Assembly: GCA_949297765.1 (NCBI GenBank)
Contig: CASFTV010000006.1
Coordinates: 62,001-126,000, forward strand
DNA: 64,000 bases
Source: an uncultured bacterium
Lineage (GTDB): Bacteria; Verrucomicrobiota; Lentisphaeria; Victivallales; UBA1829
Direction: 5' to 3'
In this document: positions 58,140-60,621 of the stretch, one piece after another
Numbering within the stretch: the stretch's first letter is position 1
How the letters are laid out: each line of letters opens with the position of its first letter
Position numbers and translations under genes: made by a program
Notes under the pieces: generated by a model
Told to the model about the DNA's origin: nothing
Seen by the model: only the letters and a program-made list of their open reading frames with translations
The model's database searches: none

Positions 58140-59465
58140 ATGTCAGGAATCTTCAAAGCATATGACATCCGCGGGATTTATCCCGAACAGTTGAATGAAG
58201 AGGTTGCGGAGAAAATCGGCAGAGCGTTTGTCGAATTTCTCGGAGCCCGGAAAATCGTGATCGGACGGGATATGCGCCCCCACTCCGAACCGCTGTTCAA
58301 AGCTCTTTCCAAAGGGATCCTGGAACAGGGATGCGACGTGATTGATCTGGGACTCTGCTCCACGCCGATGACCTATCACGCCAACGGATTCCTGAAGGCC
58401 GACGGCAGCATCATGATCACCGCCTCCCATAACACGAAGGAATGGAACGGCTTCAAGCTCTGCCGCAAAGACGACGTCCCCATCAGCGGAGCAACCGGAA
58501 TCGCCGATATCCAGAAGCTCGTGGAAGAGAACCGCTTCAAGGCCGTGGAAAAACCGGGGACCCTCTCCTCCTTCAACATCGCGGACGAATACGGGAAATT
58601 CCTGCGCTCGTTCGCAAAGATGGACCGCAAGCTGAAAATCGTCGTCGACTACGCCAACGCAATGGGATCGTATGAAATCGCCGGGATCAAAGATCTCTTC
58701 GACATCATCCCGATGTACGAGGAACTCGACGGCAACTTCCCGAACCACGAAGCCAATCCGCTTCATACCGAGACCCTGGATGCGATCCGCGCAAAGGTCC
58801 GGGAAACGGGCGCGGAATTCGGAGCCGCCTTCGACGGGGATGCCGACCGCTGCGGATTCGTCGATGACAAGGGTGAGATCATCCCGATGGACATCTTCAC
58901 CGCCCTGATTGCGCAGGATATCCTCAGCGACAAGGGAAACGGAACGGCAACCATTCTCTACGATCTGCGCAGCAGCTGGTCGGTCAAGGAGTGCATCCGG
59001 GAACACGGAGGCCGTCCGCTGATGTCGCGCGTCGGGCATGCGTTCATCAAGCAGCAGATGCGGGAGAACAACGCCGTGTTCGCCGGCGAGCTTTCCGGAC
59101 ATTACTACTTTGCGGAAAACTTTGTCGCGGAGTCGCAGGGACTGGCGCTGATCAAGCTGGCGAATCTTGTCTGCAAGACCGGGAAAAAGGTCAGCGAGCT
59201 TGTCCGTCCGCTGAAAAAATATTTCTCCAGCGGCGAGATCAACTCCAAGGTGGCGGATACGAAACCGATTCTGGAAGCCATCCGTAAAAAATATTCCGAC
59301 GGCCATCAGTTTGAACTCGACGGAATTTCGACGGAATATTCCGACTGGTGGTTCAATGTCCGCTCGTCGAACACGGAACCGCTGCTCCGCCTGATTGTCG
59401 AAGCGAAGGACAAGGCCACGATGGAAGCCAAACGGGATGAACTTCTGCGCCTCATCCGCGGCTGA
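58140..59465 (+). CDS. manB: Phosphomannomutase/phosphoglucomutase
   Basis: A 441-residue alpha-D-phosphohexomutase. The phosphoserine loop is MITASHNTKEWNGFK, the metal loop is FDGDADRCGF, the sugar-binding loop is FAGELSGHYYF, and the phosphate-binding loop is RSSNTEPLLRL. The opening FKAYDIRGIYPEQLNEE is typical of the AlgC/ManB group that handles both mannose and glucose phosphates. It supplies mannose 1-phosphate or glucose 1-phosphate for envelope glycans and glycogen. AAAGGAG precedes ATG 58140. Single-gene unit. Confidence 0.93.
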   Translation: MSGIFKAYDIRGIYPEQLNEEVAEKIGRAFVEFLGARKIVIGRDMRPHSEPLFKALSKGILEQGCDVIDLGLCSTPMTYHANGFLKADGSIMITASHNTKEWNGFKLCRKDDVPISGATGIADIQKLVEENRFKAVEKPGTLSSFNIADEYGKFLRSFAKMDRKLKIVVDYANAMGSYEIAGIKDLFDIIPMYEELDGNFPNHEANPLHTETLDAIRAKVRETGAEFGAAFDGDADRCGFVDDKGEIIPMDIFTALIAQDILSDKGNGTATILYDLRSSWSVKECIREHGGRPLMSRVGHAFIKQQMRENNAVFAGELSGHYYFAENFVAESQGLALIKLANLVCKTGKKVSELVRPLKKYFSSGEINSKVADTKPILEAIRKKYSDGHQFELDGISTEYSDWWFNVRSSNTEPLLRLIVEAKDKATMEAKRDELLRLIRG

Positions 59466-59561: not shown

Positions 59562-59589
59562 TTGAAAAATCGCCGAATGCGTGTATATT
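59562..59589 (+). promoter_or_regulatory. Promoter of the 35-residue basic protein gene
   Basis: TTGAAA (59562-59567), 16 bp, TATATT (59584-59589), 43 bp before the ATG at 59633. Confidence 0.7.
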
Positions 59590-59632
59590 GATCGGGATCA
59601 GGGAAAGTCATATCAAGACGAAGGAGTTTCAA

Positions 59633-59740
59633 ATGGGACAGCAATACAATAAGGTTCAGAAACGCGCGCGCCGCAAACGCTACAACGAAAGACTCAAAGC
59701 AAGAGTCAAGGCCGCGATCAAGGCCGCGAAAAAGAAGTAA
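59633..59740 (+). CDS. 35-residue, highly basic small protein
   Basis: A short gene that is easy to miss. ATG 59633 has AAGGAG six bases upstream, and the gene has its own promoter and a near-perfect terminator. The peptide starts MGQQYNKVQKRARRKRYNER and ends in KKK; 15 of 35 residues are Lys or Arg. It should form an amphipathic helix and bind RNA or DNA. From memory, similar short MGQ-x-YNK basic proteins occur in other PVC bacteria without a known function. A small ribosome-associated protein is the most natural guess, not shown here. Confidence 0.75.
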   Translation: MGQQYNKVQKRARRKRYNERLKARVKAAIKAAKKK

Positions 59741-59744
59741 CCAT

Positions 59745-59775
59745 GAAAAGGCGGGAAATTCCCGCCTTTTTCATA
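59745..59775 (+). terminator. Terminator of the small basic protein gene
   Basis: AAAAGGCGGG (59746-59755) and CCCGCCTTTT (59761-59770) form a perfect ten-base stem with a five-base loop, running into TTTTT. It begins five bases past the stop codon. Confidence 0.9.
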
Positions 59776-59823: not shown

Positions 59824-60621
59824 ATGCCGCAGATTCATCCCACCGCCGTTGTCGATCCATCCGCAAAACTTGCGGAGAATGTTGTGATCGGTCCGCACTG
59901 CGTTGTCGAACACGATGTAGAAATCGGAGCGGGCAGCCGGCTGATGGCGAACGCGTTCATCGGATGCTATACGACGATGGGGGAGAACAACGTGGTCTAT
60001 CCGTTTGCGTCGATCGGTTCCGATCCGGAGGACTACGGATTCGACGGATCCGTCTCCTACACGAAGATCGGAAACAACAACCGTTTCCGCGAAGGAGTGA
60101 CCGTGAACCGGGCGACCCACGAAGGAGCGTCCACGGTTATCGGGAACGGCTGTTTCCTGATGGCAAATGCACATGTCGGCCATAACTGCAAGGTGGGGAA
60201 CAATGTGATCCTCGTGGTGGGAGCGACGCTCGGGGGCTACGCGGAAGTCGGAGACAACGCCCTGCTTTCGGGACTGGTCGCCGTACATCAGTTCTGCCGG
60301 GTCGGACGGATGGCGGTGCTCAGCGGTGTTTCGGCCATCTCCGTGGATCTTCCCCCGTTCATGATCGGCGACGGACGCAATGGCGGAGTCCGCGGATTCA
60401 ATATTGTCGGCCTGCGGCGGAACGGGTTCCCGCCGGAAACCATCCGGGCGATCAAGAAGGTCTACGATCTCTTCTTCCGCCAGGGACTCAACACGAAAAA
60501 CGCCATGGAACGCACGCTTGCCGAAGTTCCGCAGCTCCCGGAAGTGACGGAATTTCTGGATTTCGTCCGCTCCTCCAAACGCGGAATTCTCTCCGGCGAC
60601 CGTCACGGACGGCGGGCGTAA
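59824..60621 (+). CDS. lpxA: UDP-N-acetylglucosamine acyltransferase, first step of lipid A synthesis
   Basis: A 265-residue left-handed beta-helix enzyme that transfers an acyl chain from ACP to UDP-GlcNAc. It opens MPQIHPTAVVDPSAKLAENV and has hexapeptide repeats throughout. The catalytic His lies in MANAHVGHNCKVGNN, and substrate-contact segments are GSDPEDYGF and GLVAVHQFCRVGRM. The C-terminal helical part includes GLRRNGFPPETIRAIKKVY. Length matches E. coli LpxA (262). ATG 59824 is chosen over the frame back to 59743, which would start in the preceding terminator. lpxB, lpxC and lpxD are not adjacent. Confidence 0.95.
   Translation: MPQIHPTAVVDPSAKLAENVVIGPHCVVEHDVEIGAGSRLMANAFIGCYTTMGENNVVYPFASIGSDPEDYGFDGSVSYTKIGNNNRFREGVTVNRATHEGASTVIGNGCFLMANAHVGHNCKVGNNVILVVGATLGGYAEVGDNALLSGLVAVHQFCRVGRMAVLSGVSAISVDLPPFMIGDGRNGGVRGFNIVGLRRNGFPPETIRAIKKVYDLFFRQGLNTKNAMERTLAEVPQLPEVTEFLDFVRSSKRGILSGDRHGRRA

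Follow-up and report, generated by a model that had tools for sequence, protein, structure and literature searches.

Between a phosphomannomutase-type gene and lpxA, the stretch of DNA analysed here (64,000 nucleotides from an uncultured Victivallales bacterium; referred to as the window) carries an open reading frame of 35 codons, located on the same strand as both neighbours. The locus raises the question of whether so short a frame encodes a protein and, if it does, which role such a protein could have. Its translation is MGQQYNKVQKRARRKRYNERLKARVKAAIKAAKKK, followed by a stop codon; 15 of the 35 residues (43%) are lysine or arginine, and the pI is 11.8. Basic composition alone is not proof of a real gene, and short basic frames do arise by chance: among the 191 ATG-started ORFs of 25–60 amino acids in the window, one other besides the 35-codon frame reaches at least 40% Lys/Arg (2/191).

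The frame, a promoter, the AAGGAG motif and a ten-base terminator stem had been described in the first-pass annotation, and all four proved correct to the base (Table 1). The promoter agrees with the consensus at 10 of 12 positions; by itself, however, this match is poor evidence, since a scan of 14 kb returned 8 promoter-like sites where 3.0 were expected. A TATATT or TATTTT box is similarly placed 5' of the small gene in sister species and in genus g3, and (A)AGGAG-type sites precede the start codon in nearly all Lentisphaerae relatives. The arms of the terminator, AAAAGGCGGG (59746–59755) and CCCGCCTTTT (59761–59770), form a perfect ten-base stem around an AAATT loop; the hairpin begins five bases past the TAA of the small gene and folds as RNA with –19.1 kcal/mol (z = –5.5). 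The hairpin is absent from the list returned by an automated terminator scan, we think because its T-run sits within the stem. GC-rich hairpins with a T-run occupy the equivalent position in g1, g3, g4, g8 and g9. The mechanical ORF call for lpxA starts at 59743, ahead of the terminator of the small gene, which is not credible; the credible start is the ATG at 59824.

Table 1. Features of the small-gene locus in the window, and two separate small-protein loci of the same genome
Feature	Location	Strand	Basis or remark
Sigma-70-type promoter	59562..59589	+	TTGAAA (59562-59567), 16-nt spacer, TATATT (59584-59589)
Shine-Dalgarno sequence AAGGAG	59621..59626	+	6 nt ahead of ATG
CDS, 35-aa basic protein (MGQQ family)	59633..59740	+	translation, homologues, dN/dS, codon-position bias
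Intrinsic terminator hairpin	59746..59770	+	10-bp arms, 5-nt loop, U-run within and just past the 3' arm
Upstream neighbour, phosphomannomutase/phosphoglucomutase family	58140..59465	+	start MSGIFKAYD inferred from domain limits; context only
Downstream neighbour lpxA	59824..60621	+	context only
bS22 ortholog (L244)	G000:C63:3392-3478	-	PDB-derived bS22 profile
TIGR04137 protein (L085)	G000:C21:36347-36496	+	above model cut-off

What places the 35-codon frame beyond chance is its conservation. Of 61 near relatives, 52 encode the peptide, with the reading frame and the ATG start preserved. dN/dS, calculated over the 30 codons after the start within unsaturated genera or clades, is 0.05–0.18, and it is zero in two groups that show synonymous changes only. 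When one pair per genus is compared, the differences at codon positions 1, 2 and 3 amount to 16, 16 and 74, respectively (third-position bias, binomial p = 2e-14). A control profile in which these columns had been shuffled, moreover, matched 0 of 115 genomes. The frame is a real protein gene, as had been proposed; the findings that the first-pass annotation had named as speaking against a protein, namely lack of conservation or conservation of an RNA only, were looked for and did not turn up. The probability of a chance ORF, or of an RNA gene whose conservation only passes through the frame, is virtually nil, given the dN/dS values, the codon-position bias, the phylum-wide preservation of start and frame, and an Rfam search without credible match.

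The protein is encoded by a single-copy gene in most Verrucomicrobiota genomes. A first profile detected it in 266 of 388 genomes, and a widened profile in 303 of 384 genomes and 157 of 192 genera of the phylum (Lentisphaerae and Verrucomicrobia); the latter profile includes some of the sequences it recovers, so that the count holds partly by construction, but most of the matched genomes contributed none. Apart from two genomes of one genus, there was one match per genome. About a fifth of the genomes lack a copy detectable with the widened profile, including the complete 0.9-Mb family f31, and f19. A pattern scan of 84,980 species yielded 282 relatives, the best 80 of which all belong to Verrucomicrobiota or Lentisphaerae; named relatives are found in Opitutaceae, Prosthecobacter, Brevifollis gellanilyticus NBRC 108608, Luteolibacter, Pedosphaera, Chthoniobacteraceae and Lentisphaerae GWF2_49_21. 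No relative was found on viral contigs.

Members of the family share the core M-G-Q-Q-x-[N/R]-K-x-x-K-R-x-R-R-x-x-Y-x-x-R-x-K, the N-terminal motif being the most conserved part and kept phylum-wide. Most families have proteins of 30–35 residues, while those of Verrucomicrobiales carry an added Ala/Lys/Pro tail of 30–150 residues that is often acidic at its end. A long AKKAPAKKAA tail follows the core in members from Akkermansiaceae and Verrucomicrobiaceae (L089–L170), and its length varies strongly among close relatives. The AlphaFold model of the protein consists of a single helix (residues 7–34, pLDDT 93). Foldseek returned no matches with this model as query; a lone helix gives little to match. 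The predicted single basic helix resembles the form of several short proteins buried in rRNA.

Searches of Pfam, NCBIfam, PHROG and Rfam gave no credible match, a single weak Cecropin match (E 0.0055) being below the model cut-off, and a search of PDB sequences with the threshold relaxed to E = 10 gave a single chance hit and no other chain. In the literature searched, which is largely open-access, we found no paper naming the family; it may stand as an unnamed entry in a small-ORF catalogue. The family is phylum-wide and apparently unnamed, and the lack of a family model is probably due to the length of only 30–35 residues in most families. The proposal that the protein is lineage-specific and skipped by standard family models is borne out, the lineage being the phylum.

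Four known small proteins, bL34, bS21, bS22 and the TIGR04137 protein, were each located separately from the small protein in the window's genome. Among the closest in kind is bS22 (COX24/AURKAIP1-type, the analogue of mS38), known from Flavobacterium johnsoniae (7JIL), Borrelia burgdorferi (8FMW) and mycobacteria. Like the small protein, bS22 comprises about 30 residues, is extremely basic and helical, has been missed by annotation and is lineage-restricted; the Borrelia protein, with 61% Lys/Arg, was unannotated and found only by cryo-EM (PMC10618245). However, the bS22 motif (KRRxKxxKHKxxKxxxxxRHK) differs, the small protein matched neither this motif nor the bS22 profile, and profile comparison revealed no similarity. 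Since a separate bS22 gene is present in the same genome, an assignment as bS22/COX24 was rejected. A bS22 profile built from three PDB sequences, two of them from F. johnsoniae and B. burgdorferi, recovered a single short ORF from each of 87 Verrucomicrobiota genomes out of 115 (loci L228–L235, L236–L243 and L244 among them). The bS22 of a sister species, MGNLRKKRRRKIAQHKRKKMLKAMRHKNK, scores 14 bits as compared to a cut-off of 34 for the NCBIfam model ribo_bS22, and PF08213 misses the true bS22 of the window's genome. Thus, bS22 is likewise widespread in Verrucomicrobiota, in at least 87 of 115 genomes, and is easily missed by existing models.

The small-subunit protein bS21 is also basic and helical, with a Lys/Arg-rich C-terminal helix, but it is encoded by a separate gene in 113 of 115 genomes and shows no profile similarity to the small protein, which does not match PF01165; it is therefore neither bS21 nor a truncated form of it. 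The short, basic bL34 (44–45 amino acids) is very similar to it in Arg, Gln and Ile codon usage, but the two share no motif and bL34 is located separately in 60 of 61 relatives. The TIGR04137 protein (Chlam_Ver_rRNA, NCBIfam), which we take to be a small basic protein restricted to Chlamydiae and Verrucomicrobia, is another small protein of the window's genome; membership in this family was rejected, as the NCBIfam model is not matched and the loci are separate.

The genomic neighbourhood differs between lineages, and the translation-gene neighbours below are given as raw counts rather than relative to a genome-wide background. Family f29 shows the order rpsB-tsf-small gene on one strand, with gaps of 26–72 nt between tsf and the small gene (L080, L264, L265, L266). 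EF-Ts and uS2 of this operon were confirmed by HMM; tsf was identified by motif and position, since, in loci of high GC content, the largest neighbouring ORF is frequently a spurious antisense frame. The small gene is followed by a terminator-like hairpin in L080 and by prfB (RF2) in L266, and the order tsf-small gene recurs in L176. Directly downstream of the small gene, rimO, coding for the S12 methylthiotransferase, is present in 15 Opitutae loci; a gene for an RlmI-type 23S rRNA methyltransferase is divergently oriented in 18 Akkermansiaceae-type loci, and leuS (LeuRS) lies upstream in six f3-type loci. Members of f22, f24, f27 and f73 (L249, L268, L175, L179, L075) have a gene for a YacP NYN endonuclease directly downstream, followed in f24 by trpS (TrpRS). 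The YacP adjacency may point to a long-standing link of the small protein with mRNA decay that depends on the ribosome. Ribosomal or other translation genes thus accompany the small gene in f29 and several other groups and not in Victivallaceae, whose downstream neighbour is lpxA rather than a translation gene. The description of the small gene as a monocistronic, well-bounded unit applies to the window's genome but not throughout the phylum, since one family has it at the end of the rpsB-tsf operon, and in a sister genus, g6, lpxA comes next without an obvious terminator between. As a separate observation, translated frames upstream of L250 (G070:C219) contain repeated GFNPRPRVGGD and SIRAPAWGAT peptides, suggestive of a CRISPR repeat array translated as though it were an ORF.

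Pooled over Victivallaceae, the codon usage of the small gene is that of a highly expressed gene and resembles the bL34 signature: AGA and CGC account for 89% of the arginine codons (background, 39%), CGA, CGG and AGG are nearly absent, and CAG and ATC reach 99% and 96%, respectively. Most genera exceed an amino-acid-matched null in codon bias. Judging from codon usage, the protein may be abundant, as the first-pass annotation had suggested, but this applies to the pooled family; taken singly, the window's own copy (0.14) does not reach significance, nor do L005, L012 and L014.

Taken together, the rpsB-tsf operon, the translation neighbours, the bL34-like codon usage and the single basic helix lead us to consider it fairly probable that the protein is a lineage-specific, rRNA-binding ribosomal protein of Verrucomicrobiota, including Lentisphaerae. 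The gene is single-copy and lineage-wide, is under purifying selection at the protein level and, in pooled Victivallaceae, has the codon usage of highly expressed genes. The protein would be a short, very basic alpha-helix that binds rRNA and resides stably on the ribosome, its conserved N-terminal 22 residues (MGQQ-N/R-K--KR-RR--Y--R-K) occupying a fixed rRNA pocket, and its Lys-rich C-terminal part, which is longer in Verrucomicrobiales, remaining free or on the surface. As to the subunit, proximity to rpsB and to RimO/S12 would point to the small one, and proximity to RlmI to the large one. The Borrelia bS22, which annotation had likewise overlooked, provides a precedent. Since about one fifth of the genomes lack a copy, a ribosomal protein of this type would have to be dispensable or divergent there. 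Also weighing against this reading are the change of neighbours from lineage to lineage, with lpxA in Victivallaceae, and the non-significant codon signal of the window's own copy.

That the protein is a translation-associated RNA-binding factor rather than a stable subunit component, such as an assembly or hibernation factor or the partner of a YacP/Rae1-type ribosome-dependent endonuclease, appears rather unlikely. The YacP NYN gene adjoining downstream in members of four families, the modification enzymes RimO and RlmI encoded nearby, and the lack of the small protein in some complete genomes would suit a transient factor, but a stoichiometric component would account better for the rpsB-tsf operon and the strong codon bias, and a single helix of 30–35 residues leaves little room for anything beyond an RNA-binding element.

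The first-pass annotation had considered a ribosomal or a nucleoid protein, of which the operon and the neighbours favour the former. A small, histone H1-like protein that binds DNA via its basic charge is improbable: a Lys/Arg content of 43% and the AKKAPAKKAA tails in Verrucomicrobiales members are compatible with it, and K/A/P-rich tails, which would fit a DNA-binding protein too, count against a ribosomal role; however, it is a specific N-terminal motif that is kept phylum-wide, not mere composition, as indicated by the scrambled control. Besides, the Lys-rich tail is limited to some families and frequently ends acidic, several neighbours are translation genes, and no DNA-packaging gene was seen among them.

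A leader peptide or attenuator for lpxA, as the direct succession of the two genes in Victivallaceae and the lack of an obvious intervening terminator in g6 could suggest, is very improbable and already contradicted by conservation where lpxA is absent: a terminator separates the genes in the window, other lineages have rimO, yacP or a glycosyltransferase gene downstream instead, and amino acids, not nucleotides, are conserved. Equally remote is a secreted or cytotoxic cationic peptide (antimicrobial or toxin), for which small size, charge and the sub-threshold Cecropin match might speak, against a single-copy, phylum-wide spread without viral-contig relatives, the translation operon of one family, and no immunity or export neighbour seen.

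The small protein is near-universal in a phylum known from gut, soil and water, without Pfam, NCBIfam or PHROG model and without PDB match. If it is ribosomal, the reading we prefer, the ribosomes of Verrucomicrobiota would contain at least one unmodelled component. More tentatively, it is possible that most ribosomes of the phylum hold an undescribed structural protein beyond bS21, bS22 and the TIGR04137 protein, in an rRNA pocket which in other bacteria is, as far as known, protein-free. The profile obtained in the present work makes the ribosomal reading directly testable; if it holds, it would matter for structural work, for comparisons of antibiotic sites and for phylogenomic marker sets.
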